Source: Synechococcus sp. PCC 6312 (GTDB lineage Bacteria > Cyanobacteriota > Cyanobacteriia > Thermosynechococcales > Thermosynechococcaceae). Taken from it: DNA of 64,000 nucleotides. Under the pieces are notes generated by a model. It was given only the letters and a program-made list of their open reading frames with translations. It had not been told where the DNA came from and did no database searches. Positions 20,264 to 46,990 of the stretch are shown one piece after another. The stretch is from the NCBI RefSeq assembly GCF_000316685.1, contig NC_019680.1:1675501-1739500 (forward strand). The letters run 5' to 3'. Numbering within the stretch: the first letter of the stretch is position 1; the number at the start of each line of letters is the position of its first letter. The position numbers and the translations under genes are program-made.

Positions 20264-21017
20264 TATAGCAAAACTGTGACGTTATGACTCTTATGGATGT
20301 ACTCGCTCATTTCTCAAGGGTACGCCCCTTTCTTGAATGCCCGAAGGGCTATAGGGGCGGGGAATCTACCCAAAGAGATTGAATCGGGAAAAACCTTTGT
20401 CTACTGGGCGGATCAGTGTCATCTCGTTTCAGGGGATATTTGTGGATATGCTTGGGGTAAAACGGATAAAAGAGTACAGGTTCCTATCAAAAATATAAAG
20501 GAAAGGCAAACATATTATGGTGCAATTAACTATGTCACAAGTCGCCTAATTGTAAGACCTTATTCCAATGGAAATAGCCAGAATACCATTCAGTTTATCA
20601 AAGAGATAAAGACGATTCATCCTAATCAGAAAGTTATTGTGATTTGGGATGGTGCAGCATATCATAGCAGTCATGATTTCCGTAATTATTTACATCAAGT
20701 CAATGGAGATAAGCCAGAACAAGAATGGTCTATTTACTGCATCAAATTAGCCCCATACGCACCGGAACAAAATCCGATTGAAGCAGTGTGGTTGCAAGCT
20801 AAAAACTTCTTGAGGAATGAGTGAAATTTATTGAAAAAATTTAAGATTACTAAATGGCTGTTTCAAGAGTTTTTAAGTCATTTTGTTCTCCATTCTTATC
20901 ATCTCAGTATGTATGGTATATTCTCATGAATAATTCATGTTTGCTATACTTCTTAGAAATCATTGGAATTCTTTGGGTCAATTTTTGAACTGTTGATCCT
21001 AAATTGAGAGATAAATC

Positions 21018-30000: not shown

Positions 30001-33000
30001 GCCAAATTCAGAGAAACAGTTGCTCCCAGGGGGTCGTCAAAGCGGTAGTAAATATCAGGGCTGTCTTGGAGTACTGAGTAGGCATAGGCAGGGGCTGTTG
30101 TATCACTCCAAAAAATGGCGGGATTGCCTTGAAATTCCCCTACTTCGAGACTGGCAATCGCAGATCCGCTGGCATCACCAACATTGGGAATAACAGTGGG
30201 TGTTGACCAGGCCTGGCTTTGTCCGTTCCAAATGGTTGTGTAAAGGCTCTGAGAGGTATCACCGGTTGCTGGATCAGGTAGGGCTGTATTCACCCATGTA
30301 GCAATCAATTCTCCTGAGGTTGTCCCGGCTCCCAAGGTCACTTTGGTATCTGTACCCACATTGGCAGCCAATAATTGCGGCGAACTCCAGGCCTGGCCAC
30401 TCGGAGCAATTGAGTAGTAGATGTCTGTAGCCAATAGGGCATCTGTAATCTCATCGCCGCTACTGTTGGGATTGAGATCACTGGCATCAGCATGGGCCCA
30501 GACCAACACTCGCACGGGATTGCCCAATTGATCCAAGTAATAGCCAATGGCCGGGTCAAAGTTAAAGCCACGACTCCCCTGGCCTGGGACAGGTTCCGGC
30601 GCACTCCAATCGGTTCCCGAAAGGACAGCGGTTTGCAGACGGGTGATGACAGCTTTGTTTTTGCTTTGATTCGTCAGGGGGGTAATATTGTCAATCCCAT
30701 CCGCCACCCAGGCCATGGTCGTGGCTGTTTGGAGAGTTTGATTAACAGGATAGGTAATCGAACTAATACTGGGGGGGCCGTCATTGACGAGATTAATTAG
30801 TTCTGTGGCAATGGGTTGGGCGGTTGCCGTTGCGCCTGTTCCGCCGCCGCCATTCTGACTGAAATCGAGGCTAATACCACTGGACTTGTATCCCTGCCCA
30901 CCGTTGAGAATCGTAATGTCAGTAATTTCCCCCTGAGTCACGCTAACAGATAGCAAAGCTGCTTCGGTACTCTCTCCTTTGGGCGTTATAACAAAGTAAC
31001 CCGATTTTCCGCCTAAGTAGTTCGTTCCTTTTTGGGTGATGTTGGCCTGGGTAATTTGTCCATTAGCATCTAATGTTACAGTAGCCGCTGCCCCAGTCCC
31101 GCCACTCAGGCCAAAGTCCAAATTTAGGGGCCGATTGCTATATCCACTCCCTTGATCTACGACCGTTACGTTGGTGATTGTGCCTTGGCTGACATAGACA
31201 GTCATTAAGGCATCATCGTTTGTACTACTCCCTGGTACATAGGTTTGAAAACTCCCACTCAGCCCATTGAGATAGCTGGAGCCACCTGTAGCTAGGTTGA
31301 TATAGCCAATTTGGGCAGTTGTGGTTGTCGTAATTCCCCCACTCGTGGTTCCAGATGCCTGTTGACTGATGGATTGCGAGAGGGGAGTTTGGTAGTGGTT
31401 GGCCCGGCCTGTGTAGGGGTTGTAGCCAACCGTTACTGTTCCTGGATTGGTGTCAGTGGTCTGACTGTTATTAGCGGCAGTGGCTAGAGATTGAGTACCG
31501 GCATCGCTAGAATCGGGGGTGTTGACGAGTGTACCACTGATACCCCAGTTGTAACTCCAGGTAAAGAACCCTGCTTGCAGATTGGCATTAATCCCGGCTT
31601 GTCAAGGAATTGTAAATGCCAGGTCAGGTTCTACTTCTAGCTCAAAGGTTAATCCCGCACTGGCTTGGGCCTGGGCCGTAAAAGTTTGATTAAGAATCCC
31701 TCAGGTTCCAGATAGCTTAACCGTCAGGGGCAGCCCAAACCCAAAGCCAAACTTCCCATAGTCACTTTCTGTGGGCCAAGGCCAGGGGGGCATAGTGATA
31801 TCCCAGGCCGAGATAATAATTGGAGCAGATGTTCCAAGACCAACTAGGGTTTGAACAATCGAGCCAGCTGCCCCAGCCGTCCCTTCATTTTTATCGTTAG
31901 CTGCGGGATATAGAAATGAAACGGCTGTGCCAAACTCACCAATACCCGTTAACCAACCTGGCTGATTCAAAATAAATGGAGCTTTCGTGCCAGCATTAGG
32001 TTGAGTGAACGTATAGCCTACTTCTAAGCCGAAGTCAAAGTCTGCTTCTGCCCGAAACTGCCCAATGCTGAAAGTCTTTGTGCCCAGATTCAGTTTATAT
32101 TGCTTAAACAGTTGTAAACCAAGCTCAAACGACCGTTGCAGACCCACGAGAGTTCCGGTGCTTGGACTATAATTAACCTGTCCCCCTGAATCGATTTGAA
32201 CTGCATTAACCCCCCATCCGCCAATGGAAAATAAGCTACCACTGCGAACACTAGATGAAGGCGAGACTCCACTGGCAGCAGCTTTAATGCCATCTGATTT
32301 GGTGTAGTCGGAAATATCCAGAGCTAATTTTGCTTTCAGGGCCTGGTGATTACCAGTCATGCCCAGATTCCCTGTTAATTGCAGGCCAAGATTACTGGTA
32401 TCACTCATCCACGGCACACCAATCCGGCCATCCACATTTTTATTTGGCGCACCGAAGTTAAGGTTAAAACCCCGTGTTACCCCGGCCGGGAAAGAGTTTT
32501 CGACAATGGGCTGACTTGGTTGGGATGGAGAACCGCCCGGTGTTATGCCTTGGGCCCCAGGCCCCAATGGATAATAGGTGGCTGTGTTGCCTGGATTCTC
32601 ATTGAAGGTTAGGTTAACACTTTGCCCGTTAAAAATCTGGAGACTGGGCTGCCCCTGATTCAGGTTGACGGAAAGATAGGTATGGTAAAGATCGGTGTCA
32701 TCCCGATTGGATTGAGCCGCATCTAGTCCCATTTGGGCAGGATTGATCGTGTACTGTGGGTCACGGGGATCAATCACCAGAGATTTCTGATAGACCACAT
32801 CCAGGAGTCCATCCTGAAGTAAAGCCGCATCGATGTTCTGATCTGCTACCCCGTCATGGGTTAATTGAACCGCATCTGACCACTCCAACTTGCCTGTGGC
32901 ATTGTAGCGCCCCACAGCAGCATAGACTTCCTTAGAGTTGCCAAGCCCTTGCTCCCAAAACGCAACCAGGCCTGGGGCGTATTCAATGTTTCCGCCTTCT

Positions 33001-33197
33001 AGGTAAGGGTAAAGGTCTCCGGCAATCAGCTTTAGGTTGGAGCCGCCCAGGGCGTTACTGATGGGGCTGGCCTGATCCCATGTCCCTGAATTTTTGTCAT
33101 AGATGGCATGGATTAACTGCCCGTTATTTTCCCAAACAATATGTTCGATACCTGCCACATCTACCGCAGTTGCTGCGAAGGAAGCGTAGGGATTCAT
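21018..33197 (-). pseudogene. Giant FG-GAP/LamG/Calx-beta/RTX/DUF4114 exoprotein, split by two TGA codons
   Basis: One frame of 4,059 codons runs from ATG 33197 to the stop at 21018, interrupted only by TGA at 31701-31703 (after KLSGT) and 31602-31604 (after LAFTIP). TGG in both places would give GTWGILNQTF and IPWQAGINAN. The N-terminal 500 codons form a beta-rich domain. A LamG-like domain lies at about codons 1070-1380, FG-GAP/VCBS repeats with DVNGDGIDDLLVGAP-type calcium loops at about 1690-2240 and in later blocks, and sialidase-like WS-P repeats between them. RTX nonapeptides (GDDTLLG type) lie near 3270-3340, a Calx-beta domain near 3500-3576 and a DUF4114 end (GGGDRDYNDMVLQ). There is no Sec signal. 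Such proteins are exported by type I systems and act at the surface. The long downstream frame (3,395 codons) is intact, so the stops are recent or read through. Confidence 0.85.
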
Positions 33198-33385: not shown

Positions 33386-36208
33386 ATGAGCCAGAGTCTT
33401 GAAATTACCGGAAAACTGACATCTACTTGGTTTGTCCAGGAGGGCTTTGCTGCGATCTTTTCCGTTCAATCTCAGCATTCAAGACAACAGCCCCTCTTTA
33501 TCATGCCTCAAGGCTCAATCATTTTTGGCTTGCCCGTGTGTGAGGAATTATGCGTCCGGGCCAGAGCCATTGGTAGCAGCAGGGTTACTCCCATAAATTT
33601 TGCCGAAGCAGATCCGTCTCTGGGAATTTTGCCAAAGCCGAGGCAGCAGTGGTTGGAAGTTCTCGCCCAGCAAATGTATGTTCGTCCAGAACTTGTCCAC
33701 CCTCATCCTTCCGGTTATGCCTTTGCACCCCAATTACCAATTGAACTAGGGCCTGGAGAGGTTTTCCGGCTTCCCCTAGAATCCTGTTATTGGGTTATGG
33801 TGCTGGCTGGGGAGGTATATTTTCAAGGCAATGTTCAAATCCCGGCCGGGAGCCTCTTCCCCCTCACTATGTACTCTTGGGTGTTAGCCAAAACAGCAGC
33901 AACCTTGACTTTGGAACCTTTTTTAGAATATCCACATCAACTGACTAGCCCTCAAATGACGGGTTGGCATTGGTTTGGGGAACAATACCTGGCCTGGTTA
34001 ATTGCTGCTGTTCAAGCCCAGACGGTTCAGGAGTTTGCCAAAATCGCAACTTACGAAACCAACCATCGCCAAACCCTGGAGAATGCTTATGGTCAATTTG
34101 ACAATGTTTTAGTTAAACGAACCTTAGGTAGCTCCCAGGCCAATCCCCTTAATGTGGCATTACATCGGTTAGGGAAAATTGCTGGTTTAGAGTTTTCAGG
34201 GAATCTTAAACTAGATACGTTCAACCTCAGCTTATCTGACCAGATTCAAGCTATTGCCCGTGCTTCCCGAATTCGAGTCCGACGGGTGCAGTTAGTGGGG
34301 CAGTGGTGGCGACAGGATTCCGGAGTAATGTTGGGGGTTATGGCCGAAACAGGAATTCCGATTGTCCTCACTCCCCAAAATAATCATTCCTATACAGTAT
34401 TTAATTCCGCAACTCAACTTACCTTACCTATCCTTGACTTTAAACCCAGTCAACTCGAACCTTCTGCTTATGTTTTCACCCGTCCTTTAGCACGGCGACT
34501 TCAAGGGGCTTGGAACTTGGTCAGGTTTGCCCTACATCGGCGGTGGCATCTATTGGGGCTGGTGTTGCTAATAGCTTTGGTGATGCAAGTACTTTTAGTC
34601 ATCATCCCCGCCCAGCTTTATCACATTTTGATCGACCAGGCCATTCCCGCAGCCAATTACACACTTTTGACTCAACTGGGAATCGGCCTCTTTGCTTCTG
34701 TAATTGCCGTGGCCTTCTTTCAGTTTTTGCAAGGAATGATCATCCTACAAGTGGAAACATGGGCAGAATTTGACACCCAAGCCGCCGTCTGGGATCGGGT
34801 CTTGGAGTTACCTGCTAACTTTTTTCGCAATTATTCAACTGGGGGACTCACAAACCGTATCTTTAGTGTCACCGAAATGCGTAAGCTCCTGACTGGCTCA
34901 ACTTTACAAGCGGTGATTACCGGATTAGTTTCCTTAGGGAACTTGGGGATGATGTTTTATCTCGACTCAACCCTGACCTGGATCGCCATTGGTTTAATGA
35001 CTGTCATTGTTCTGGTGACCTTTCTCCATGCTTGGTTTATTCTCAATATCTACGAAAAAATGCGGCAATTGACAGGTAATCTCTATGGCATGGTAGTGCA
35101 ACTGATGACAGCAGCAAAGACATTACAGGTCACGGGTGCTGTGCCGCGGGCATTCTTGAATTGGAGCAGCCTTTATAGTCAACAGCAACAATTAACCTTG
35201 GCCAGCCAAACTTGGGGAGATAGCCTGCAATTGTTTAATCAGGGGGCAACTCTCACCAGTACGGCGATTCTTTTTGGGGTGATTGGCTTTACAGTCGAAA
35301 GCGGTGAATTGTCCACGGGGAACTTTGTTGGTTTTAATACGCTTTATACTAATTTTTTCCAAAACGCGACTCATTTTGCTTATGCGTTGATTGGGCTGTT
35401 GCCTGTGGTCAGTTTGTGGCGACAAGTGGAACCGATCTTACAAACGCCCTTGGAAGTCAGTCCTCAGAGTTATGATCCTGGCCAACTTCAGGGTGCAGTT
35501 CAAGTTGTACAGGTCTGTTATCGCTATCAGCCTGATGCTCCATTAACACTGAATCAAATTAACTTGGAAGCTCGGCCGGGAGAATTTATAGCCCTAGTCG
35601 GCCCCTCTGGGTCAGGAAAATCTACTCTATTTCGCTTACTCCTCGGCTTTGATCAACCGGAAACGGGAGGTATTTTCTATGACGGTCAAGAACTGAGCCA
35701 GTTAGATTTACCCTTAGTTCGCCGCCAAATTGGCCTTGTACTTCAACACTCCCGTCTTTTACCAGGTTCGATTTTTGAAAATATTGCCTGTGGGGAAACA
35801 ATTAGTCGTGACCAGGCCTGGGAGGTCTTGGAGCAAGCCAATTTAGCCAAGGAAGTGAGCGAGTTACCAATGCAACTTGAAACCCGAATTAGTGAAGGCG
35901 GTGGAAATTTTTCAGGGGGACAGATTCAACGGCTTTTAATTGCGCGAGCATTAGCCCACAACCCGAAAATTCTCCTGTTTGATGAAGCGACAAGCGCCCT
36001 TGATAACCAGACTCAGGCCTTGATTACGGCAACGCTTAACCAACTCCAAATAACACGGATTATTGTTGCCCATCGCCTCAGTACCATTCGCCAAGCCCAG
36101 CGCATTTACGTCCTAGAGCAGGGGCAAATTCTTCAAGTCGGGACATTTGAGGAGTTAGTCTCTCAGCCAGGCCTATTTGCCAACTTAGCCCGCCGTCAAC
36201 TTGTTTAA
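33386..36208 (+). CDS. NHLM-type bacteriocin-system ABC transporter (peptidase-less)
   Basis: In this 940-residue protein the first 350 residues form a soluble region with a cyclic-nucleotide-binding- or cupin-like part (LELGPGEVFRLP; ESCYWVMVLAGEVYFQGNVQIPAGS split over several strands). Transmembrane helices cover about residues 385-680. The ATPase has Walker A GPSGSGKST, signature SGGQIQRLLIARAL and Walker B KILLFDEATSALD. This is the layout of the NHLM_ABC2 transporters that accompany C39-peptidase transporters in cyanobacterial precursor-peptide loci. It is first in the exporter operon, 46 bp before the HlyD-type gene and divergent from the giant exoprotein gene across 188 bp. Confidence 0.88.
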   Translation: MSQSLEITGKLTSTWFVQEGFAAIFSVQSQHSRQQPLFIMPQGSIIFGLPVCEELCVRARAIGSSRVTPINFAEADPSLGILPKPRQQWLEVLAQQMYVRPELVHPHPSGYAFAPQLPIELGPGEVFRLPLESCYWVMVLAGEVYFQGNVQIPAGSLFPLTMYSWVLAKTAATLTLEPFLEYPHQLTSPQMTGWHWFGEQYLAWLIAAVQAQTVQEFAKIATYETNHRQTLENAYGQFDNVLVKRTLGSSQANPLNVALHRLGKIAGLEFSGNLKLDTFNLSLSDQIQAIARASRIRVRRVQLVGQWWRQDSGVMLGVMAETGIPIVLTPQNNHSYTVFNSATQLTLPILDFKPSQLEPSAYVFTRPLARRLQGAWNLVRFALHRRWHLLGLVLLIALVMQVLLVIIPAQLYHILIDQAIPAANYTLLTQLGIGLFASVIAVAFFQFLQGMIILQVETWAEFDTQAAVWDRVLELPANFFRNYSTGGLTNRIFSVTEMRKLLTGSTLQAVITGLVSLGNLGMMFYLDSTLTWIAIGLMTVIVLVTFLHAWFILNIYEKMRQLTGNLYGMVVQLMTAAKTLQVTGAVPRAFLNWSSLYSQQQQLTLASQTWGDSLQLFNQGATLTSTAILFGVIGFTVESGELSTGNFVGFNTLYTNFFQNATHFAYALIGLLPVVSLWRQVEPILQTPLEVSPQSYDPGQLQGAVQVVQVCYRYQPDAPLTLNQINLEARPGEFIALVGPSGSGKSTLFRLLLGFDQPETGGIFYDGQELSQLDLPLVRRQIGLVLQHSRLLPGSIFENIACGETISRDQAWEVLEQANLAKEVSELPMQLETRISEGGGNFSGGQIQRLLIARALAHNPKILLFDEATSALDNQTQALITATLNQLQITRIIVAHRLSTIRQAQRIYVLEQGQILQVGTFEELVSQPGLFANLARRQLV

Positions 36209-36254
36209 GCTTAATTATCCTAGGTTTTAGTTCTCAACACTCTTTATACTCTCT

Positions 36255-37727
36255 ATGTCATCAGAAGCCCCACCTTCCAAGCTCACCTTCCGAGCCAAAG
36301 CCTTAGAAAACCTCTCTAGCTCAGATCTATTCCGTCAACGCTTAAATGTTTATCACCTCACCCCTTGGTTTGCCCTGTCTGTTCTGGGAACAATGGTGTT
36401 GGGGCTGCTGGCCTGGGGGATATTTGGGCGGATTCCTGTAACCGTGGATGGCCAAGGAATTATTCTCCGACCTCGCGAAGAGCGCGGTAAACCTCCGGAA
36501 ATTAGCTTTTTTGCTGCATCGGGGGAGGGACGCATTTCCCAAATTCTTGTCCAAGAGGGAGATGCAGTGAGTTCCGGGGAGTTGCTGGGAGAAATTGAAC
36601 AACCTGACCTAGCCTTTCAATTAGAAAATAAGCAACGGGAGCTGCAAGAATTAGTCAATCAGCAGAAATCCCTCAGGGGCCTGGAACAGGAATCCACAAG
36701 CCTCAGCGAGCGGGCAATTCTCATTAAAAAAGAAACAACCCAAGCCGAAATTGAATCCCTCCGAGAGCGAGCTACTTTTATCAAAACCCGCAAGCTCACG
36801 TCATTATCTGTTCAACAACAGGGATTAAGACAACAACAACAACGGATGCAAGCACTGGCTCAGTTACAAGAAAACAAAGTCTTACAGACGGAACCGTTGG
36901 TTAAGGAAGGGGCAATCTCTCAATCAGCGTTTATTCAAATTAAAGAAGAAGCTATTCGCACTGAAAATAATGTCTCAGAAATCACTTCCAATTTAGAACG
37001 GGTTAATGTCGAAATTGTCACAGCCAATGAAGAATACGACAGCACCCAAGAGCGAATTGCCAATCTCAAGGCCCAACTGGATGAATTGGACGGACAACTC
37101 ATCAATGTAGATTTACAAGATCAAACCCGAACTACAGAACGCACGCTTAAAATTCAGTCTATTAAAGGAGAACTCCAAGTCCTCCAGGCCACCTTCCGGC
37201 AACGCAGTCAAATCCGTAGCCCCCACACTGGCACAATTTTGGATATGTTTGCTTCAGTCGGTCAAATCGTCCAAGTGGGAACTCCGATTGGTCAAATTCA
37301 AGTAGCTGGCACCCAAGGCCCTTCCTTAACAGCATTGCTCTACTTCACACCTGGAGACGGTAAACGAATTACTCCCAACATGAAGGTCTCTGTCACGCCT
37401 GACACTGTGAAACGGGAAGAATATGGCGGTATTCAAGGACAAGTCTTATCGGTTTCTCCCTATCCTGTTAGCGAACTCTCAGCTCAGGAATTTACAGGCG
37501 ACAAAACCCTAGCCGAGGCTCTCACGGACAAGGGGCGAAAAATTGAGGTTTTTGTGGCCCTAGAAACTGACCCCAACACGAAAAGTGGCTATCGCTGGAC
37601 TGCTTCTCAAGGGCCTAACTTCAAAATTACCTCTGGCTCTATTGCCACAGCCGCCGTCACCTTAGAGGAAAACTCCCCAATTAGTTACGTTTTGCCAATT
37701 TTGCGCCAGTGGACAGGACTGTACTAA
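36255..37727 (+). CDS. NHLM-type HlyD-family secretion adaptor
   Basis: One N-terminal membrane helix (LSVLGTMVLGLLAWGIFG, about residues 42-60) precedes IPVTVDGQGIILRPREERGK, a lipoyl half (ISQILVQEGDAVSSGELLGE), long coiled coils (about 120-310), the second lipoyl half (RSPHTGTILDMFASVGQIV) and a C-terminal beta-barrel. It is 490 residues long, normal for the group. It links the inner-membrane ABC proteins to an outer-membrane channel, which is not encoded nearby. The stop is 2 bp before the PCAT start, so expression is coupled. Confidence 0.9.
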   Translation: MSSEAPPSKLTFRAKALENLSSSDLFRQRLNVYHLTPWFALSVLGTMVLGLLAWGIFGRIPVTVDGQGIILRPREERGKPPEISFFAASGEGRISQILVQEGDAVSSGELLGEIEQPDLAFQLENKQRELQELVNQQKSLRGLEQESTSLSERAILIKKETTQAEIESLRERATFIKTRKLTSLSVQQQGLRQQQQRMQALAQLQENKVLQTEPLVKEGAISQSAFIQIKEEAIRTENNVSEITSNLERVNVEIVTANEEYDSTQERIANLKAQLDELDGQLINVDLQDQTRTTERTLKIQSIKGELQVLQATFRQRSQIRSPHTGTILDMFASVGQIVQVGTPIGQIQVAGTQGPSLTALLYFTPGDGKRITPNMKVSVTPDTVKREEYGGIQGQVLSVSPYPVSELSAQEFTGDKTLAEALTDKGRKIEVFVALETDPNTKSGYRWTASQGPNFKITSGSIATAAVTLEENSPISYVLPILRQWTGLY

Positions 37728-37729
37728 CC

Positions 37730-39943
37730 ATGTCTGCCCCTATCAGTACACCCACTATTCTCCAAATGGAAGCTGTCGAATGTGGCGCTGCGGCATTAGG
37801 CATTATTTTAGGATTTCATCGCTGCTATGTTCCCCTGGCTGAATTGCGCCAGGCCTGTGGGGTGTCTCGGAATGGTAGTAACGCCGCCAATATTGTCAAA
37901 GCTGCATCTCGCTATGGATTGGATGCGAAAGGCTATCGCTTAGAATTAACCTCTACCCAGAAACTGACTCCTCCCTTTATTGCCTTTTGGGAATTTAATC
38001 ATTTTGTGGTGGTGGAAGGCTTTGGCAAAGACCAAGTGTATCTTAATGATCCCGCTGTTGGACGGCGACAGATTAGCCTGGATGAGTTTGATCGTTCCTT
38101 CACCGGCATTGTTCTCACCTTTACACCTCAGCCAACCTTTCAACCCCGTGGCCATGCCCCCAGTATTTGGCCCAGCTTGTGGCGGCGATTGCGGCAAAGT
38201 CGGGCGAGTCTGGAGTTGCTTTATTTAGTCCTAGTCGGCTTCCTTTTAACCATTCCGGGTCTAGTCATTGCTATTTTCTCTAAACTCTTTGTTGAAAATA
38301 TTCTCATTGAAAACCACCTAAATTGGTTGCGGCCATTCTTGTTGTTAATTGCCCTGGTTGCGGCCCTCAATTTATCCCTTACCTTTTGGCAATCCCAGGC
38401 CCTGAGGCGTTTACGCACCCGTTTAGCCATTCAATTATCCAGTCAGTTTATTGAGCATATTCTCTGTTTACCCGCCAGTTACTATGAGCAGCGTTCCGCC
38501 GGAGAAATTGGCAGTCGCGTCAGTTTGAATAATACGGTTGCTAATGTTCTATCTGGTGAACTAGCCAAAACAGTGATTGATAGCGTCATGATGATTGTCT
38601 ATGGCCTGGTCATGTTTACCTACAGTGTCCCGTTAACCTTAATTGCCATCGGCCTGGCTGGCGTGAATGCGCTGGGATTACGCTGGTTTGCCCGGCAACG
38701 TCAAGATACTAATTTACGGCTGGGGTTAGAACTCGGTCGGGCGATGTCTACAACCATTACTGGATTGCAAGCGATTGAAACCATCAAGGGATCGGGCCTG
38801 GAAACTTTCTTCTTTAATCGTTGGGCCGGCCTTTATACCAAAGCCATTAACTCTCAACAAGAACTTGCGATTCCCACCCAAACCATTAGTATCTTGCCTT
38901 CTGCCCTTAGCTCCCTCACTAATATGACCCTGATTGTCGTTGGTGGTATTCAGGCCATGCGGGGAGAAATGAGCATTGGAATGTTAGTTGCCTATCAAGC
39001 CCTAATGCAGCTATTCCTCGAACCCATTAACCGCCTCGTCTTGATGAGCAGTAGTATTCAGGAACTCTATGGGGATATTGCCCGCCTGGATGATGTCTTA
39101 GACAATCCCATTCCACCCGGTCAAGACTTTTTTCAATTTGCCAGTCCTACCACTCTTCAATCTCTAGAGACTCAATCCCCTCCCAACTCAATGGCAAAAT
39201 TAGAGGGGCAATTAACACTTAAAAACATTACCTTTGGTTATAGCCCGATTGACCCACCCCTGATTCAAAACTTCAATCTAACCCTAGCTCCCGGCGAACG
39301 AGTTGCCCTAGTTGGCGGATCCGGGTCGGGGAAAAGCACAATTGCCAAACTGATCCTAGGAGTCTATCAACCTTGGCAAGGCAGTATTTTATTTGATGAA
39401 CAGCCAAAGTTAGACATTCCCCGCGCCGTCCTCCATCACTCTATAGGCTATGTCTCCCAAGACAGCGTGATTTTCTCTGGGACTGTTCAAGACAACATTA
39501 CCCTTTGGGATCACACTCTGACAGATACCGATATTATCCAGGCCAGCATTGATGCCATGATCCACCCCAAGATTATGACCCTCCCTGCCGGATACCAAAC
39601 TCAACTGCTTGAAGGGGGCATGAATCTCAGTGGGGGAGAACGCCAACGCCTAGAAATTGCTCGAGCCTTAGTCCGCAATCCTTCCCTGTGCATTTTTGAT
39701 GAGGCCACCAGTGCCCTTGATGCCAATGTTGAGGAGCAAATTATGCAATGCCTCCAAATTCGGGGTTTAACCTGCTTATTCATTGCCCATCGCTTGAGCA
39801 CGATCCGGGACTGTGATCAGATTATTGTCATGGAACAAGGCCAGATCGTTGAGTCAGGAACCCACCAAGCATTATGGGAAGCCAAGGGGTTGTATCATCG
39901 GATGCTTTCTGCCCAAAGTGTTGAAGACTATACTCAAGATTAG
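37730..39943 (+). CDS. Peptidase-containing ABC transporter (C39 peptidase, PCAT)
   Basis: From the ATG at 37730, which I prefer to an upstream GTG inside the HlyD gene, this gives 737 residues. The N-terminal C39 peptidase has the catalytic Cys in MEAVECGAAALGIIL, His in FNHFVVVEGF and Asp in VYLNDPAVGRR. Six membrane helices follow (about 155-440). The ATPase has GGSGSGKSTIAK, LSGGERQRLEIARAL and CIFDEATSALD. It should cut substrates after a double glycine while exporting them. The family of GG-leader genes immediately downstream on the same strand are the obvious substrates. Confidence 0.93.
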   Translation: MSAPISTPTILQMEAVECGAAALGIILGFHRCYVPLAELRQACGVSRNGSNAANIVKAASRYGLDAKGYRLELTSTQKLTPPFIAFWEFNHFVVVEGFGKDQVYLNDPAVGRRQISLDEFDRSFTGIVLTFTPQPTFQPRGHAPSIWPSLWRRLRQSRASLELLYLVLVGFLLTIPGLVIAIFSKLFVENILIENHLNWLRPFLLLIALVAALNLSLTFWQSQALRRLRTRLAIQLSSQFIEHILCLPASYYEQRSAGEIGSRVSLNNTVANVLSGELAKTVIDSVMMIVYGLVMFTYSVPLTLIAIGLAGVNALGLRWFARQRQDTNLRLGLELGRAMSTTITGLQAIETIKGSGLETFFFNRWAGLYTKAINSQQELAIPTQTISILPSALSSLTNMTLIVVGGIQAMRGEMSIGMLVAYQALMQLFLEPINRLVLMSSSIQELYGDIARLDDVLDNPIPPGQDFFQFASPTTLQSLETQSPPNSMAKLEGQLTLKNITFGYSPIDPPLIQNFNLTLAPGERVALVGGSGSGKSTIAKLILGVYQPWQGSILFDEQPKLDIPRAVLHHSIGYVSQDSVIFSGTVQDNITLWDHTLTDTDIIQASIDAMIHPKIMTLPAGYQTQLLEGGMNLSGGERQRLEIARALVRNPSLCIFDEATSALDANVEEQIMQCLQIRGLTCLFIAHRLSTIRDCDQIIVMEQGQIVESGTHQALWEAKGLYHRMLSAQSVEDYTQD

Positions 39944-40161
39944 CCAAGTGGATGATACCAAATGGGTGATGTACTCTCCTCCTATTGCTAGGTTCTTCAG
40001 CAGGATATAAGTAATCAAAATATCAAGTCGTCCCCCCCCTATTTTTAGAATGCTATATTACAAATATCGAAAGAGAATAACACTCAGAATTCATTAAGAA
40101 AGCAGTTGACGTATTTAGAGTTTGAATGTTCCGAGCATCAAGTTTTATGGAGATAATTACA

Positions 40162-41007
40162 ATGAATACCGATCTAAATCAACAAGAACTCATTGAGCGG
40201 GAATTGACCCTAGATGAGCTAGCTGCTATCTCTGGCGGCAGCGAATTTACTGATTTCTTCAAAAAGATTGGTGATGATTTTGGTGAAGTTGGCGGCGTTA
40301 TGATTGCGGGAGGATATACGGTTGTTCAAGCCTGTAAGGGAATGATTGCTGAAATGACTGGTGATTTGGAAACAGCCAAAGACATTCAACAAAACACTAT
40401 GGATCGTGCAGAAAAACTTTACAACGATGTGAAAGATGGTCTTGGCACCAAGGTGTTAGGTGTGGTATCAACGGTCGGCATTGTTGGGGCTATCGCCAAG
40501 GGTGGCAAAATGGCCTTTGATGTGATTCGTACAGGAATTCGTCCAACGGATGTACGTCCAGTAAATCCGTTTTTAGATATCACCCTTGATTCAATTCCGT
40601 CTCATACCGGTAATACTGCGTACGGCAGTCCAACTGGTAGCTTTAACTCTAGCTTCAGCTTTTTAGAACAGAAAAACAGGCAACTCCAAGATATCTTTTC
40701 CGCCGAACAACTGCAAAAACTGAGTGAAGCAGGTTTCAACAAGAACGATACTGTCTATAACTATTTTGAAGTGAAAAATCTTCAATCTGCCACTGACTTA
40801 TCTAACCAATTGGGTTCCCAAGCTAACATTCAGGGGGCTTTTTTGGAAGTCAAGCAAGAGACAGGTAATGGCTTCATTATCAGGAACATTCCCATCATTA
40901 CCATCCAGGAGGTGAGTCAACCAGCTACTAACGAACCTAAACGGGAGAACGTTGGTGGGCTTAAGTTGACTGGCCCAGAAAAATATATAGCACAGCGGAT
41001 TTCCTAA
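40162..41007 (+). CDS. Double-glycine-leader precursor protein 1 (281 aa)
   Basis: The start ATG at 40162 follows GGAG. The 26-residue leader ends ERELTLDELAAISGG and fits the C39 cleavage rule. The core has an amphipathic module (GGYTVVQACKGMIAEMTGD, then DIQQNTMDRAEKLYNDVKD), a weakly hydrophobic Gly/Ala/Val segment (VLGVVSTVGIVGAIAKGG), a Ser/Asn-rich linker and a C-terminal domain (QDIFSAEQLQKLSEAGF ... GAFLEVKQETGNGF). The mature product of about 255 residues is far larger than typical GG-leader bacteriocins. It is the most divergent member of the local family. The frame is open 12 codons further upstream, without leader character. Confidence 0.75.
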   Translation: MNTDLNQQELIERELTLDELAAISGGSEFTDFFKKIGDDFGEVGGVMIAGGYTVVQACKGMIAEMTGDLETAKDIQQNTMDRAEKLYNDVKDGLGTKVLGVVSTVGIVGAIAKGGKMAFDVIRTGIRPTDVRPVNPFLDITLDSIPSHTGNTAYGSPTGSFNSSFSFLEQKNRQLQDIFSAEQLQKLSEAGFNKNDTVYNYFEVKNLQSATDLSNQLGSQANIQGAFLEVKQETGNGFIIRNIPIITIQEVSQPATNEPKRENVGGLKLTGPEKYIAQRIS

Positions 41008-41053
41008 ATTAAGGTTTGCAAGCAACGAGTTCCATCTTGAATTTATGGAGGGT

Positions 41054-41308
41054 ATGGCGATGGAAAATCAAGCACTTGAACGGGAACTCACCCCTGAAGA
41101 GTTGGAAGAAATCGCTGGCGGTTTAAGTTTGGGTGATTTTTGGGATGACACCAAGAAAAACCTATTAGGTCATGTATCCCCGCTCTGTCCAGTTACAGTT
41201 CCGAATGCGAGAGGTGAGACAATCGTAATCCATGATGCCTCACCAGGCCTACCAACTGAGGATGAGGGATGTAAACTTCCTATTGCTAGTAAATATGAAA
41301 ATGATTAG
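41054..41308 (+). CDS. Short double-glycine precursor with two cysteines (84 aa)
   Basis: GGAGG at 41047-41051 precedes ATG 41054 and ATG 41060; both give the leader MENQALERELTPEELEEIAGG. The core starts LSLGDFWDDTKKN, like precursor 4, then changes to an unrelated 45-residue sequence with two Cys (SPLCPVTVP and EDEGCKLPI) that could form a disulfide. It therefore looks either like a true small bacteriocin-sized precursor or a deletion product of a longer member. It lies about 45 bp after precursor 1. Confidence 0.65.
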   Translation: MAMENQALERELTPEELEEIAGGLSLGDFWDDTKKNLLGHVSPLCPVTVPNARGETIVIHDASPGLPTEDEGCKLPIASKYEND

Positions 41309-41369
41309 CTGTTAGTTGGTTTGAGAGCGATAAACAATTCGTTTAATAACAATCAATGGAGTTTTCGTC

Positions 41370-42323
41370 ATGACCAAGATCAATAACGAAAATCAAGAAC
41401 TTGAGCGGGAACTCACCCCTGAAGAGTTGGAAGCAATTGCTGGAGGACTGAATGTTGGGGACAGAATGGCAAAATTGGGTGGGGTGATGCATGGCAGGCA
41501 AGAAGGGGCCTCTGGCAATATTATTGGTGAACTGGGGGGGCGCGTTGCCCAGGCTGCTTACACTCTTAAAGAGGCGTTTAGGGGCTTCGGGGCCATGATA
41601 ATCGGTGACGACGAAACGATGGCAGACGTTCAGAAGAACACTATGTCTCGGGGAGAGCAAGTTTATCAAGATGTGAAAGACTCAACCGCAGGAAAGATTT
41701 TGGGAGGTTGTGTTCTTGTTGTCGGCACTGCTGCTGCTGGAGGGGCTATTGCATCTGGAGTACGGAGCATCGGCACTGCTACTATCCGCACAGCAGGTAC
41801 TCGTCCACTAATTCCAAATAGCGGTACCAATACACCGGCTTGGCCTGCTGGAACTCCAGGTTTTGGTGGCTCTCCGGCTGGATCCCTCGCTAATTCCTTT
41901 CATGATGTCCCTCTAGACCTTTATCCTGGCAAAGGTAGCTTTGCGATCACTGGGTTACAGATCAACCAGCAGTCGCCCATTGGTGAGCAGCTTGTTGAAA
42001 AATCGGCAGGGCAGTTTTTATCTGAAGATCAACTGAAGCAGTTTGGCATTCCTGCTGATGCGCGCGTTGTTGGCTATGTAGGTGCTAAAGAGGCTGATGC
42101 TGATTTCGTGAAGGAATTTAAGGCTACTCTTGGCCTGGGCGACAACGCAAAATTGGGCTATTTGCAGGTAAGTTGGTCACACAATGGCTCTCCAGTCCGG
42201 GACGTTGTGCCCATGATCGAAATGAACGATGCCCAGATTACCGCCAATGAACCTAAGAAAGAGGAGCTTACAACCCCTCAGTCAAATCATTTAAGTCGTA
42301 ATCGCTTCTACCATCCCCACTAA
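41370..42323 (+). CDS. Double-glycine-leader precursor protein 3 (317 aa)
   Basis: The 26-residue leader ends ERELTPEELEAIAGG. The core begins LNVGDRMAKLGGVMHGRQ, has the amphipathic module ELGGRVAQAAYTLKEAFRG and VQKNTMSRGEQVYQDVKDS, and a glycine-zipper hydrophobic segment (GKILGGCVLVVGTAAAGGAI, about residues 118-140). A Pro/Gly/Thr linker precedes the C-terminal domain (EQLVEKSAGQFLSEDQLKQF ... YLQVSWSHNGSPVRDVVPMI) and a basic His tail (SRNRFYHPH). The last 345 nt of the gene are nearly identical to precursor 5, so the two arose by recent duplication or gene conversion. Confidence 0.75.
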   Translation: MTKINNENQELERELTPEELEAIAGGLNVGDRMAKLGGVMHGRQEGASGNIIGELGGRVAQAAYTLKEAFRGFGAMIIGDDETMADVQKNTMSRGEQVYQDVKDSTAGKILGGCVLVVGTAAAGGAIASGVRSIGTATIRTAGTRPLIPNSGTNTPAWPAGTPGFGGSPAGSLANSFHDVPLDLYPGKGSFAITGLQINQQSPIGEQLVEKSAGQFLSEDQLKQFGIPADARVVGYVGAKEADADFVKEFKATLGLGDNAKLGYLQVSWSHNGSPVRDVVPMIEMNDAQITANEPKKEELTTPQSNHLSRNRFYHPH

Positions 42324-42333
42324 ATTTGGCTAG
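41979..42333 (+). repeat. 355-bp direct repeat, copy 1
   Basis: From attggtgagcag to aaatttggctag this segment matches 44020-44374 over the same length without gaps and with few mismatches. It covers the C-terminal domain of precursor 3 plus 10 bp after the stop. The identity ends abruptly after ggctag at both copies, where copy 2 runs into the truncated precursor 6. Confidence 0.85.
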
Positions 42334-42429
42334 TTTCAGGAATGTGATGCATTGACTCTCAGAACAACTTTTATTGCAATTGAGAGTCGAAGGAACCTTT
42401 TTTTACAATCCTTTTATGGAGCTTGGATT

Positions 42430-43263
42430 ATGACTGCAATGGAAAATCAAGAACTTGAACGGGAACTCACCCCTGAAGAGTTAGAGGCAATCGCTGGCGG
42501 CTACAGTTTCGGTGAATTTTGGGACGATACCAAGAGAGTAGCAGGGGCAATTCCTGGTGGAGTAGCGGCGGGTGGTTATGCCGTTGGTCAAGCCTTTAAG
42601 GCGTTGGGTGCCACTATTGCAGGCGACAAGGATACGGTGCGTGATATTGAAGAAAATGGCTTAGGTCGAGTGGGTCAACTTTACCGAGATGTGCGAGACT
42701 CTACTGCTGGGCAAATTGGAGGGGGTTTGATCATTGGTGCTGCTGCTGTTGTTGGAGGTTCGTATGTTGTCGGGGCCTTGGCTGGTAGTGCTGGTACTGT
42801 GGCAGGGGCTGGTGTCATTGTGATTGCCATAAGCGCATTGAATTCTCGAACTAATAGTGCTCCTTCAATTCCCATTGACAGAACTATTAGCTTCCAACAA
42901 GATTTTTCAGGTAAAAAATTAAACGATTTTTTCTCCTCAGACCAACTCAAGTCCCTTGGCTTCACCACTGACAGAGATTTCAAAATCGCTAGCTATCATG
43001 ATGGGGGTGTATGTCCAGACAATCTTAAAGAACAAATTGCGGCCGCTGGCTACACGGGTGAAGTTAAAGTTGGCTTTTTTCAACTGGTTTCACAAAACTC
43101 TAATGGCGTAGTCGAATCCATAGCTATACCTGTCATATCTGCCAATGAAGCCAAGAAAAATGAAGCCAAACAAGATGACTTTACACCACCTCAGTCAACA
43201 GGTGGTTTCCGTGGCTACGGCCGTCGATTAGATGGTCAGCGGCGCAACAGCACTCAAGGCTAA
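42430..43263 (+). CDS. Double-glycine-leader precursor protein 4 (277 aa)
   Basis: GGAG lies before ATG 42430. The 24-residue leader ends ERELTPEELEAIAGG. The core begins YSFGEFWDDTKRVAGAIPGG, then the amphipathic module (GGYAVGQAFKALGATIAGD, then GRVGQLYRDVRDS). A long glycine zipper follows (GQIGGGLIIGAAAVVGGSYV then VGALAGSAGTVAGAGVIVIA, about residues 98-140), the most membrane-like of the set. The C-terminal domain has FFSSDQLKSLGFTTDRD, and the tail DDFTPPQSTGGFRGYGRRLD is basic and Gly-rich. The C-terminal tail is shared with precursor 7 while its domain differs from precursors 3 and 5. Confidence 0.75.
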   Translation: MTAMENQELERELTPEELEAIAGGYSFGEFWDDTKRVAGAIPGGVAAGGYAVGQAFKALGATIAGDKDTVRDIEENGLGRVGQLYRDVRDSTAGQIGGGLIIGAAAVVGGSYVVGALAGSAGTVAGAGVIVIAISALNSRTNSAPSIPIDRTISFQQDFSGKKLNDFFSSDQLKSLGFTTDRDFKIASYHDGGVCPDNLKEQIAAAGYTGEVKVGFFQLVSQNSNGVVESIAIPVISANEAKKNEAKQDDFTPPQSTGGFRGYGRRLDGQRRNSTQG

Positions 43264-43386
43264 ATTAAATCTTGGCACGGGTGGGGCAAGCCTGAGAAAT
43301 TCGCTACCCTCGGCTTGGTTTTTGCCCTTATTTCGGTTGAGAGCTACAAACAACTTGTTCAATTATTTTTTAATGGAGATTACATC

Positions 43387-44364
43387 ATGACTACGATTAA
43401 CAATGAAAATCAAGACCTTGAGCGGGAACTCACCTCTGAAGAGTTAGAGTCAATTGCTGGGGGAATGAATGTTTGGGACAGAATGGCGAAATTAGGCGGG
43501 GTGATGCATGGCAGGCCAGAGCCAAATTCCATCGATCTTCTTGGTGAAGTGGGGGGGCGTGTTGCCCAGGGTGGTTACACTGTTGCCCAGGCCTTTAAGG
43601 GGGCATGGGCCGAGTTAACCGGCGACCTAGGCACGGCGGCTGACGTTCAGAAGAACACCATGTCTCGGGGAGAGCAGGTTTATCAAGATGTAAAAGACTC
43701 ACCTGCAGGAAAGATTTTGGGGGGAGTTGTGCTTGTTGTCGGAACATCTGCTGCTGGCGGGGCTATCTCATCTGTAGTCCGGACCGCCAGAACTACTACT
43801 GCTTCTGCTGCTAATCCCATCAGTTGGGGAACTACGCCCAGCCCTTCAATCGCTGGTGCACCACAACAATTCACTAGAGGCAGCATTGGAGAGATTGTGA
43901 AACAAGCACAACGTGAACACTGGGCTAATGGTGGCTCATTTAGTTCTATGCCTCGGACTGAATCTGTTTTCTCTTACAATGCGGTTATCTCAGGATTACA
44001 GGTAAACCAACGATCGTCGATTGGTGAGCAGCTTGTTGAAAAATCAGCAGGACAGTTTTTATCTGAAGGTCAACTGAAGCAGTTTAATATTCCGGCGGAT
44101 GCTCGCGTTGTGGGCTATGTAGGTGCTAAAGAGGCTGATGCTGATTTCGTGAAGGAATTCAAGACTACCCTTGGCCTGGACGACAACGCAAAACTGGGCT
44201 ATTTGCAGGTAAGTTGGTCACACAATGGCTCTCCAGTCCGGGACGTTGTGCCCATGATCGAAATGAACGATGCCCAGATTACCGCCAATGAACCTAAGAA
44301 AGAGGAGCTTACAACCCCTCAGTCGAGTCATTTAAGTCGTAATCGCTTCTACCATCCCCACTAA
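43387..44364 (+). CDS. Double-glycine-leader precursor protein 5 (325 aa)
   Basis: GGAG lies before ATG 43387. The 26-residue leader ends ERELTSEELESIAGG. The N-terminal module (MNVWDRMAKLGGVMHGRPEP) and amphipathic module (VAQGGYTVAQAFKGAWAELT) match precursor 3. The glycine-zipper segment is GKILGGVVLVVGTSAAGGAI. The linker differs from precursor 3 and includes SIGEIVKQAQREHWANGGSF. The C-terminal domain and His tail are nearly identical to precursor 3. The frame extends 24 codons upstream without leader features. Confidence 0.75.
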   Translation: MTTINNENQDLERELTSEELESIAGGMNVWDRMAKLGGVMHGRPEPNSIDLLGEVGGRVAQGGYTVAQAFKGAWAELTGDLGTAADVQKNTMSRGEQVYQDVKDSPAGKILGGVVLVVGTSAAGGAISSVVRTARTTTASAANPISWGTTPSPSIAGAPQQFTRGSIGEIVKQAQREHWANGGSFSSMPRTESVFSYNAVISGLQVNQRSSIGEQLVEKSAGQFLSEGQLKQFNIPADARVVGYVGAKEADADFVKEFKTTLGLDDNAKLGYLQVSWSHNGSPVRDVVPMIEMNDAQITANEPKKEELTTPQSSHLSRNRFYHPH

Positions 44365-44374
44365 ATTTGGCTAG
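44020..44374 (+). repeat. 355-bp direct repeat, copy 2
   Basis: Second copy of the segment at 41979-42333. Immediately after it the sequence enters the glycine-zipper part of a leaderless precursor (ARGKIVGGIALVIGGGVAGG), so a recombination or deletion event probably joined the 3' end of precursor 5 to the middle of another family member. Confidence 0.85.
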
Positions 44375-44900
44375 AGGAAAGATCGTAGGCGGTATTGCTC
44401 TTGTTATTGGTGGGGGCGTGGCAGGTGGAGCTGTTTCTGCTGGAGGCCGTGTGATCGTCAGTGCCACCACCGGGATACGCAACATAACACCGATTCTTGA
44501 ATCAGGTGCTCTTGGTGCTACTCCTAGCGTCCCGGCGGGTGCAATCAGTTTTCTACAAGTTAAGGAAGAAGCAACTTTAGGGCAGTTTGTTTCTGCAGAT
44601 CAACTCAAGGCCGCAGGCATTCCATCCAATGCCCGTATCGTCGGTTATGCAAGTGCTAGAGACACTGATAATTTGGTGCAGGAATTCAAGGCTACCTCTG
44701 GCTTGAGCGATGACGTAAAGCTGGGCTGTCTCCAGGTGGAGTGGTCTTATAACGGTTCTACTGTCAGCGATTATATGCCCATAATCGATTTGGGTGAGAT
44801 CAAAGAGAATGCTGTTGAGGAACCTAAACCTGCAACAGGCGGGATAAAGCTTACTGGGGGGAAATCTGGAATGACTCTTCAACGCATTGGGGAATCCTGA
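44367..44900 (+). pseudogene. Leaderless, 5'-truncated precursor 6 remnant
   Basis: An open frame from TTG 44367 begins with the hydrophobic zipper (GKIVGGIALVIGGGVAGGAV) and continues with a full C-terminal domain (TLGQFVSADQLKAAGIPSNA ... GCLQVEWSYNGSTVSDYMPI) and tail. The leader and amphipathic module are absent, and the beginning is fused to the 10 bp that follow the precursor 5 stop. Without a GG leader it cannot be a PCAT substrate. I see no good ribosome site. It is best read as a decayed member, though the domain reads openly, so decay is recent. Confidence 0.65.
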
Positions 44901-44952
44901 TCAAGGCTTGACTATTATCAAACTGTTCATCAATCATTACTCAGGAGACTTT

Positions 44953-45186
44953 ATGAACGAGACAGAAGAACAGGGCATTGAACGGCAACTCACCCCCGAT
45001 GAACTGGCTGCCATTTCTGGTGGTTTCAATTTAGATAGTCTATTGGGGAAGGTAGAGCCTCTCCGTATTGGGCTTGGTGCCATCGAACCCAAACAAGATG
45101 ACTTTACATCCCCTCAGCTAACGGGTGGTTTCCGTAGCTACGGCCGCCAACTCGATGGTCAGAGGCGGAACAACACACAAAGCTAA
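44953..45186 (+). CDS. Short double-glycine precursor 7 (77 aa), internally deleted
   Basis: GGAG lies before ATG 44953. The 24-residue leader ends ERQLTPDELAAISGG. The core starts FNLDSLLGKVEPLRIGLGAI and passes directly into the tail of precursor 4 type (KQDDFTSPQLTGGFRSYGRQ and LDGQRRNNTQS). The amphipathic, zipper and C-terminal domains are absent. It may be an internally deleted relic or a genuine short product of about 53 residues with a basic C-terminus. Confidence 0.65.
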   Translation: MNETEEQGIERQLTPDELAAISGGFNLDSLLGKVEPLRIGLGAIEPKQDDFTSPQLTGGFRSYGRQLDGQRRNNTQS

Positions 45187-45385
45187 ACTTAGCTTGGGCG
45201 TTGCACGTTTTTGGGATGATTTGGGTCAAATTTTTGATGCGCCTCTCTCTTGTTAACCTGAGTTTACATAGGCTAGAGCAGATCATTAGAAATTGGATTT
45301 CCCTATAGATATCTCCACGATAGAATTAGAGGTAGATTTTCACTGTATAAATTAAGAATATACAGCCAAAATAGAGCTAATTAAT

Positions 45386-46297
45386 ATGAGTCATGACATC
45401 TACAAATTGATTTGTCAGAAACCAAAAGACTGTAAACGCTTGATGGGTGTTAACTTTGAGCAACTAGAAGAGCTGATCGAACATTGTAAAAGATTGCATC
45501 AGATAAAACAAGAGGAGATTGAGAACCAGAAGAAACGAGTGATTCGAGCGGGCGGTGGTCAGTCTCCTATCTTGACCCTAGAAAACCAAATTATCTTAAC
45601 GCTACTCTATCTCAGACATTATTTAACTTTTCAACTGCTTGGTTTGATGTTTCACGTCAGCGAGTCCACTGCTCATAATGTCTTTAACTATTGGCAAATA
45701 CTCCTGGAGGAAGGACTATCACCTAGTCTTTTAGAACAAGTAAAAAAGTACCCGGAGGCTGGGGCTGAAACTCTGGCCAAATTAGTCAATCAAGAGTTAG
45801 TGATAGATAGCACAGAACAAGTCATAGAGCGACCTTCGAGCTATCAGGAGCAGAAGCGTACATATTCTGGCAAAAGGAAGAATTTCACTTTAAAAAATCA
45901 GTTAATTGTAAGTCCTGTGACTTTAGATATTATTGATGTGGTCGTGGGGATGCCAGGTCGGATAAGTGATATTAGTATCTGGCGAAACAGTCGAACTCGC
46001 TTTACCCTAGAGCAGTTCTTTATGGGAGATAAAGCTTATGTGGGAGAGAGACAAATTAAAACACCAACGAAAAAGCCTAAGAATGGAGAATTAACGCGTC
46101 AAGAGAAAGAAGATAACAAATCGTTTTCAGCACGACGTATTATCGTAGAACATTTGATTCGTTTTGTGAAAATATTTAGGATTATGCAAGAGCGATTCCG
46201 ACTTCCAATATCTCGATATGATTCAATTTTTCTAACTGTTTGTGGACTAGTGAGATTGCGATTGGGCTGTTTAGAGTTGAGATTAGTTAAACATTAA
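45386..46297 (+). CDS. IS5-like (DDE_Tnp_4) transposase
   Basis: This 303-residue protein starts MSHDIYKLICQKPKDCKRLM. A helix-turn-helix-like part (LTFQLLGLMFHVSESTAHNVF, about residues 75-95) precedes the DDE core: LVIDSTEQVIERP (Asp), VVVGMPGRISDISIWRNS, FFMGDKAYVGERQI (Asp) and RIIVEHLIRFVKIFRIM (Glu). These fit the DDE_Tnp_4 group of the IS5 family. The frame is intact. Element ends are not clear: ttccctata at about 45298 and its partial inverted counterpart taataggga at about 46352 are the best candidates. It separates the precursor array from the DUF2335 gene. Confidence 0.82.
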   Translation: MSHDIYKLICQKPKDCKRLMGVNFEQLEELIEHCKRLHQIKQEEIENQKKRVIRAGGGQSPILTLENQIILTLLYLRHYLTFQLLGLMFHVSESTAHNVFNYWQILLEEGLSPSLLEQVKKYPEAGAETLAKLVNQELVIDSTEQVIERPSSYQEQKRTYSGKRKNFTLKNQLIVSPVTLDIIDVVVGMPGRISDISIWRNSRTRFTLEQFFMGDKAYVGERQIKTPTKKPKNGELTRQEKEDNKSFSARRIIVEHLIRFVKIFRIMQERFRLPISRYDSIFLTVCGLVRLRLGCLELRLVKH

Positions 46298-46435: not shown

Positions 46436-46990
46436 ATGGATTACAGGTTTTTGGAGATGTCTAAAGAAGAAATTAGTCCTGTCAGATCAGATTTACTAAA
46501 GCCTGAAGATATTTCATATCCAGAGCAAAACTCTTCTCAGTTATTTGTTTCATATCAGGAGGGTCCAATATCTCCCGCAGAACTTGAAGGTTACAACAAA
46601 TTTGATCCTGAATTTGCTCAAGAATACTTAAGAGAAATTATTAGTGAAATACATCACCGGAGACAGATAGAAGTAGAGAGGCTCAAGCTAAGAAATACTG
46701 AATTGAGTCTTGAAAGTGGAGTAGTTAAAACCCAAGAACGAATCTTTTTCAGTAATCAAAGGCGTTTTATTCTCGGCTCGATTTTGGGTTCTGTGATTGC
46801 TCTCACTGCTGTTGGGTCTGCAACCTTTTTAGGGATTCAAGGGCGAAAAGAAGTTGCAATTGCAGTAGTGGGTTCTTTGGCCGGAACAGCCGTGATTATC
46901 TATGGTACGGATGCTTATAACAAAGGACGAAAAAAGGAACTTGACTCTGAGCTAAATAATTCTTCTGAAGATAGTAACGAAGATAGCTAA
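46436..46990 (+). CDS. DUF2335 two-helix membrane protein
   Basis: EGPISPAELEGYNKFDPEFA followed by a helical, His/Arg-rich stretch (EIHHRRQIEVERL) matches the start of DUF2335 proteins. Two membrane helices follow (about residues 110-130 and 138-158: ILGSILGSVIALTAVGSATF and AIAVVGSLAGTAVIIYGTDA), then an acidic tail. It starts at ATG 46436; ATG 46457, with GGAG just before it, is an alternative. DUF2335 proteins have no known function. Its location next to the precursor array makes an immunity role possible, but an IS lies between them. Confidence 0.7.
   Translation: MDYRFLEMSKEEISPVRSDLLKPEDISYPEQNSSQLFVSYQEGPISPAELEGYNKFDPEFAQEYLREIISEIHHRRQIEVERLKLRNTELSLESGVVKTQERIFFSNQRRFILGSILGSVIALTAVGSATFLGIQGRKEVAIAVVGSLAGTAVIIYGTDAYNKGRKKELDSELNNSSEDSNEDS

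Follow-up and report, generated by a model that had tools for sequence, protein, structure and literature searches.

Closest described systems

Exporters with a C39 peptidase domain recognise the leader of their cargo and cut it after a Gly-Gly pair. Here we report on a locus of Synechococcus sp. PCC 6312 (genome of 3.72 Mb in two contigs) in which the genes of an NHLM-family exporter are followed, on the same strand, by an array of large double-glycine precursors, all within a stretch of 64,000 nucleotides (NC_019680.1, positions 1,675,501 to 1,739,500) that we call the window. The best explanation for the locus as a whole, and one that we regard as probable, is a dedicated NHLM subtype that exports large unmodified cargo.

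The NHLM exporter described by Haft et al. 2010 (PMC2887384) has the same three adjacent genes, with double-glycine substrates encoded alongside; the exporter studied here differs in being a divergent subtype, common to only one other genome in our sample, and its cargo is far larger and lacks an NHLP or Nif11 leader domain. The group V bacteriocin clusters of cyanobacteria (PMC3140520) likewise combine a short-type C39 ATP-binding cassette (ABC) protein, a second ABC protein without peptidase, an HlyD protein and several precursors per cluster, but their precursors are 28-151 residues long, against full-size precursors of 277-325 residues with a shared core domain in the window. A second cyanobacterial double-glycine paralogue array is that of EbfG1-4, secreted with the aid of the C39 peptidase protein PteB in Synechococcus elongatus (PMC4997328, PMC9981879), as is predicted here; EbfG1-4, however, are described as small proteins, and were compared with the window family by description only. 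The Cdz bacteriocins of Caulobacter (PMC5380434) resemble the window family in their type I export, which is predicted here, and as hydrophobic Gly/Ala-rich proteins that are probably unmodified. CdzC and CdzD are 84-86 residues long, have extended GxxxG repeats and are accompanied by an immunity gene, whereas the window family has no GxxxG enrichment, no immunity gene recognised in its array, and an apparently separate alpha/beta domain.

A complete NHLM exporter followed by large precursors

A first-pass annotation of the window had proposed an NHLM-type exporter trio, and curated NCBI models confirmed all three assignments at the coordinates originally given:

33386-36208 (+): peptidase-less NHLM-type ABC transporter; TIGR03797 (NHLM_micro_ABC2), 762 bits against a cut-off of 709
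36255-37727 (+): HlyD-type adaptor; TIGR03794, 300 bits against a cut-off of 156
37709-39943 (+): C39 peptidase/ABC transporter, the presumed leader-cutting exporter; TIGR03796, 1001 bits against a cut-off of 853

With three of three proteins above the NCBI curated cut-offs, 33386-39943 encodes a complete three-gene exporter that belongs to the NHLM family by every criterion tested. The C39 domain (PF03412) of the third protein is intact, scoring 124-128 bits, above its cut-off, and by eye the catalytic residues are kept, with Cys in QMEAVECG, His in FNHFVVVEG and Asp in LNDPAVG. Elsewhere in the host genome (labelled G000) a second, weaker C39 domain of 34.6 bits occurs at G000:C1:1465510-1465887 (-), in locus L002, within an open frame of 1045 residues that is possibly a long-type transporter.

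The precursor array lies directly 3' of the exporter:

40162-41007 (+): precursor C1, 281 residues, comprising a 26-residue leader (MNTDLNQQELIERELTLDELAAISGG) and a 255-residue core
41054-41308 (+): short precursor C2s, a 23-residue leader and a 61-residue core with two Cys
41370-42323 (+): precursor C3, 317 residues, a 26-residue leader and a 291-residue core
42430-43263 (+): precursor C4, 277 residues, a 24-residue leader and a 253-residue core
43387-44364 (+): precursor C5, 325 residues, a 26-residue leader and a 299-residue core, 69% identical to C3
44367-44900 (+): C6x, a leaderless remnant retaining the hydrophobic stretch, C-terminal domain and tail
44953-45186 (+): short precursor C7s, a 24-residue leader (MNETEEQGIERQLTPDELAAISGG) and a 53-residue core with a C4-type tail

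When the window was translated in six frames, L[ST]x[DE]ELxxI[AS]GG, the leader motif, matched exactly six times, always on the plus strand and between 40204 and 44989; the mean number of matches in codon-shuffled windows (n = 20) was 0.0. Six leaders directly 3' of the exporter and on its strand, against none by chance, count in favour of export. The first-pass annotation had listed five leader-bearing genes, a short relative and a remnant on one strand; the strand and the remnant were correct, but the leader-bearing genes number six, four of them full-size and two short. Their leaders have the predicted 23-26 residues, and the predicted end, ERELTPEELEAIAGG, is exact in C3 and C4 but variable in the others (for example ERELTLDELAAISGG and ERQLTPDELAAISGG). 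Where three to four cores of about 250-300 residues had been reported, four were found, of 253-299 residues. The gene coordinates also held, except that C1 likely starts at ATG 40162 rather than at 40126, because a TGGAG box is present and a 26-residue leader results. GGAG-type boxes lie ahead of the start codons of the full-size genes. Since promoter and terminator consensus scans reached chance level only, we infer the operon structure from strand and spacing alone.

Beyond its first residues the core of C2s, with its two Cys, is unlike the rest of the family, and C2s could be a small double-glycine peptide of the usual kind with the family leader.

Cargo size, leader type and modification

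The 290 cyanobacterial precursors surveyed by Wang et al. 2011 range from 28 to 164 residues (PMC3140520). For a direct comparison we used 40 other loci around NHLM-type ABC2 genes, 35 of them above the family cut-off and five sub-threshold relatives; clear double-glycine open reading frames (ORFs) in these loci have cores of at most 73 residues, in a search with one motif over about 9 kb on each side that atypical cargo could escape. One apparent core of 771 residues, in locus L054, was rejected as spurious; it is read in a different frame from the C39 transporter gene, which it overlaps. The window cores of 253-299 residues are well outside the sizes in both the survey and the comparison loci, and are too long for the short mature peptide of a class II bacteriocin.

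Leader models for NHLP (TIGR03793) and Nif11 (TIGR03798) gave no match at E ≤ 1 in any of the seven precursors, and searches of the cores against Pfam, NCBIfam, PHROGs and PDB sequences returned no significant family, with PF10439 matching C4 only below its cut-off (E 0.006). Neither a known enzyme family nor a different secretion signal, which in combination the first-pass annotation had named as contrary evidence, was found for the cores. The cargo fits neither the NHLP/Nif11 definition nor that of a short bacteriocin; the exporter fits NHLM.

These results bear on whether the genes encode precursors of ribosomally synthesised and post-translationally modified peptides (RiPPs), in which case enzymes from other parts of the genome would modify the large cores and the final product would be only part of the core. 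An NHLM trio usually serves modified peptides of the NHLP/Nif11 type (PMC2887384), but the leaders here match neither model, the full-size cores hold 0-1 Cys each, and the conserved part of the core is a folded-looking alpha/beta domain (by structural modelling) under purifying selection. As the first-pass annotation had remarked, no modification-enzyme gene is visible: none was found among the approximately 30 window proteins scanned, a scan that did not extend to the rest of the genome. We consider RiPP precursors very improbable. Given the absence of a modification enzyme among the scanned proteins, together with the near-absence of Cys from the full-size cores, the cargo is likely to be unmodified.

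Distribution of the exporter subtype and its cargo

Relatives of the precursors were sought in overlapping draws of genomes, amounting to several hundred distinct cyanobacterial genomes. Full-length profiles run on a phylum-wide set of 386 genomes found no relative outside the window's own genome, one leader-only match excepted, and none was found in 28 other genomes of the host's family or order, in draws of 361 and 196 genomes from other orders, or among plasmids and phages. A profile of the C-terminal domain, searched in 390 genomes of the class, recovered one true relative (G412:C16, E 1.9e-23), in the genome of another family that is the sole representative of its order in the sample. Three further scans with precursor profiles, two of genome contigs and one of viral contigs, found nothing; they are weak negatives, because they sought short peptide patterns that the true homologue itself lacks.

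In this second genome, G412, the genes on one strand run adaptor, C39 transporter, precursor G412a, second precursor, peptidase-less ABC gene, compared with peptidase-less ABC, adaptor, C39 transporter and precursors in the window. G412a is an intact precursor of 296 residues with the leader MNETEGQDIERQLTSQELEGIAGG and a core of 272 residues; it has the leader-core architecture of the window proteins over its full length (37-39% identity over approximately 300 residues), and the second precursor carries two apparent frameshifts. In a partial check of where homologues lie, the only ones found, those of G412, sit directly between the genes for the C39 transporter and the peptidase-less ABC protein, the opposite of the placement mostly away from C39 transporters that the first-pass annotation had set against its proposal.

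The exporter proteins tell the same pairing. Identity between window and G412 is 56% for the peptidase-less ABC protein (approximately 34-45% between the window and the other 40 loci), 69% for the adaptor (approximately 27-36%) and 73% for the C39 ABC protein (approximately 40-55%), and trees of both the C39 ABC protein and the adaptor group the two genomes together, with support of 0.92 and 1.00, respectively. When the window adaptor was searched in 209 genomes at E ≤ 1e-80, only the host genome and G412 gave matches; its best match on plasmids is 34% identical. Across the genomes sampled, the large cargo has the same distribution as the exporter subtype. This amounts to one independent co-occurrence, most simply explained by common descent of the cassette as a whole.

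Two other matches were discarded. The third match to the C-terminal domain profile, in G479, is by sequence a rhodanese-type sulfurtransferase and was attributed to chance, and the match in G141 is confined to the leader, in a protein whose leader has 69 residues. The latter protein (L097:1712-2104, minus strand, 130 residues) has a Nif11-like leader with the end ERELSEEELEAFAGG that closely resembles the window leaders; the cores are unrelated.

Core anatomy, mosaicism and selection

The four full-size proteins can be aligned over their length as leader, amphipathic module, hydrophobic stretch, linker, C-terminal domain and tail, the linker being variable and Pro/Ser-rich and the tail likewise variable. 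Of these parts the following were located:

41697-41753 (+): Gly/Ala-rich hydrophobic stretch of C3, ILGGCVLVVGTAAAGGAIA, mean hydropathy 2.0
40441-40497, 42727-42783 and 43714-43770 (+): counterpart hydrophobic stretches
40645-40947 (+): conserved C-terminal domain of C1
41940-42263 (+): conserved C-terminal domain of C3
42877-43176 (+): conserved C-terminal domain of C4
43978-44304 (+): conserved C-terminal domain of C5
44538-44831 (+): conserved C-terminal domain of C6x, modelled with a mean predicted local distance difference test (pLDDT) score of 71.5

Alignment confirmed both the amphipathic module, present in all four full-size proteins with the consensus GGYTVxQAFKG...DIQxNTMSRxEQVYxDVKDS, and the conserved C-terminal domain, of approximately 95 residues, that the first-pass annotation had described. 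Its glycine-zipper hydrophobic stretch survived in part: the segment is hydrophobic (19-residue hydropathy of 1.8-2.0 in the four full-size cores) and Gly/Ala-rich, but we dropped the zipper, since GxxxG counts do not exceed those of shuffled cores in any core (p 0.17-1.0).

AlphaFold modelling of the whole core was unusable (pLDDT 37), whereas the C-terminal domain, modelled from five window sequences, reached a mean pLDDT of 71.5 with best blocks of 76-86. The model suggests an E-H-E-H-E-E topology (beta-alpha-beta-alpha-beta-beta) with a first strand of two residues. Foldseek searches with it gave no match with an E-value below 0.15 against the PDB or below 0.055 against viral models, and the best VIA-align match had a Z of 3.8 and a root-mean-square deviation of 3.8 over 58 aligned residues. 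Matches of the eIF5A/EF-P-like kind, at Z 3-4, are too weak to count; such weak matches are in turn no proof that the modelled domain has a new fold.

At the DNA level, C3 and C5 are 93% identical over the last 388 bp and 79% over the first 480 bp, and barely alignable between (86, 79, 55 and 94% by segment). C2s and C4 share 88% of the DNA over the leader and first core residues and are unrelated over the remainder, and C7s is 84% identical to the end of C4 over 103 bp. Exchangeable tail types are found in the pairs C3/C5, C4/C7s and C1/C6x; the C6x type is also present in the G412 homologue, and a further type in the second gene of that genome. Read from these alignments, the paralogues are mosaics in which leaders, linkers, domains and tails have been swapped. 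For C3/C5 the ratio of nonsynonymous to synonymous substitution rates (dN/dS) comes to approximately 0.11 for the leader, 0.51 for the amphipathic module and 0.16 for the C-terminal region. Overall values of 0.35-0.5 were obtained for most pairs, but with synonymous sites saturated in distant pairs C3/C5 is the only one to lean on. By this measure the C-terminal domain is under purifying selection.

Incomplete genes also raise the prospect of a decaying or recently rearranged locus, in which recombination would have pasted leaders onto unrelated proteins and most products would no longer be exported. In its favour are the missing leader of C6x, the truncation of C2s and C7s, the frameshifts in the second G412 copy and a transposase gene (45386-46297) directly downstream. 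Homology of C6x to the other cores begins directly past the C5 stop codon, as expected if a deletion took its leader and first module, and C7s is consistent with a product of internal deletion. Four genes, however, are intact with ribosome-binding sites, G412a has the leader-core architecture over its full length, and dN/dS is well below 1. We judge decay of the locus improbable.

Proposed export and roles of the cargo

In the explanation that we favour, the dedicated three-gene NHLM subtype would secrete a set of paralogous, unmodified modular proteins of approximately 27-32 kDa. The C39 domain of the 37709-39943 protein would recognise the 23-26-residue leader (with the end ER[EQ]LTxxELxxI[AS]GG) and cut after Gly-Gly, and the core would exit through the C39 ABC protein, probably with the peptidase-less partner and the HlyD adaptor, and with an outer-membrane channel presumably encoded elsewhere. 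The released core would combine an amphipathic helical module and the Gly/Ala-rich hydrophobic stretch with a small alpha/beta domain set between a variable linker and a variable tail, and would most likely act at membranes or cell surfaces. The first-pass annotation had proposed that a bacteriocin-type transporter handles a family of large proteins secreted without modification; the leaders, the exporter and the co-occurrence in G412 support this up to the export step.

Several points weigh against this explanation. The family is present in two genomes only, one of which, G412, is a 120-contig assembly with a broken second precursor. Exporters of this kind are otherwise known to carry short peptides, and no C39 exporter is known to pass a core of almost 300 residues. 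Of the seven window genes, three (C2s, C6x and C7s) look truncated, which could reflect decay of the locus. Finally, no immunity gene was recognised in 39900-45400, nor between the G412 precursors and the ABC gene, and although such genes are hard to recognise, this speaks against a toxin harmful to its maker. The DUF2335-like membrane protein at 46436-46990 was dropped as an immunity candidate, as it lies beyond a transposase.

If the cores are exported, they may be antibacterial effectors whose hydrophobic stretch enters target membranes, in the manner of class II bacteriocins or Cdz, while the C-terminal domain and tail aim or anchor them. Double-glycine leaders with a bacteriocin-type exporter, a hydrophobic segment (hydropathy 1.8-2.0), mosaic diversification and a rare, patchy distribution agree with this; GxxxG is not enriched, unlike in CdzC and CdzD (84-86 residues, PMC5380434), a small membrane immunity gene was recognised neither in the array nor between the G412 precursors and the ABC gene, and PF10439 matches C4 only below cut-off. 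Taken by itself we hold the effector account as tentative. Alternatively, the cores could be exported in the same way and form cell-surface or biofilm material. The precedent is the four EbfG paralogues, which enable biofilms and require the C39 peptidase for efficient secretion (PMC4997328), with EbfG4 found on the surface and in the matrix and EbfG1-3 forming amyloid (PMC9981879), and a paralogous array with no recognisable immunity gene occurs here too. The EbfG proteins are described as small, though, the likeness is drawn from their description, and linker and tail exchange, patchy distribution and the broken G412 copy suit a conflict system at least as well; as a separate account, matrix or adhesion material seems to us somewhat doubtful. 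Within the favoured explanation of a dedicated exporter of large unmodified cargo, there are two candidate roles. Antagonism towards neighbouring bacteria would suit the patchy distribution, the mosaic tails and the hydrophobic module, and a role at the surface or in the biofilm matrix would suit the EbfG precedent and the lack of a recognisable immunity gene; we rate the former a little higher, although neither reaches an even chance.

It is also conceivable, at rather less than an even chance, that this C39/NHLM subtype has turned into a dedicated secretion system for folded-domain proteins of approximately 30 kDa, relying on leader cutting with no C-terminal signal and fed by an array that swaps leaders and modules. 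C39 exporters are regarded as transporters of peptides; genome mining for their substrates seeks short ORFs, and a protein of 300 residues would be missed. If the cores are indeed cut and exported, the size range assumed for cyanobacterial double-glycine cargo is too small by approximately a factor of two, and sequence alone could suffice to assign an exporter subtype to one cargo class. The array would also offer a direct test case for the reshuffling of leader, membrane-active module, domain and tail, as in polymorphic effectors.

Genomic surroundings

Mobile-element genes lie on either side of the region: two pieces of DDE_3 transposase at 19765-20824 and the downstream transposase, of the DDE_Tnp_4 type on the plus strand, at 45386-46297. 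Just past the latter lies the membrane protein gene at 46436-46990 (+), whose match to DUF2335 is sub-threshold. Upstream of the exporter, 31701-33197 (-) encodes a 498-residue protein with no Pfam match, and beyond it, on the same minus strand, 21018-31205 encodes a protein of 3395 residues with FG-GAP repeats, a Calx-beta domain, DUF4114 and weak RTX-type repeats, likely, from this domain content, to be a giant surface or secreted protein.

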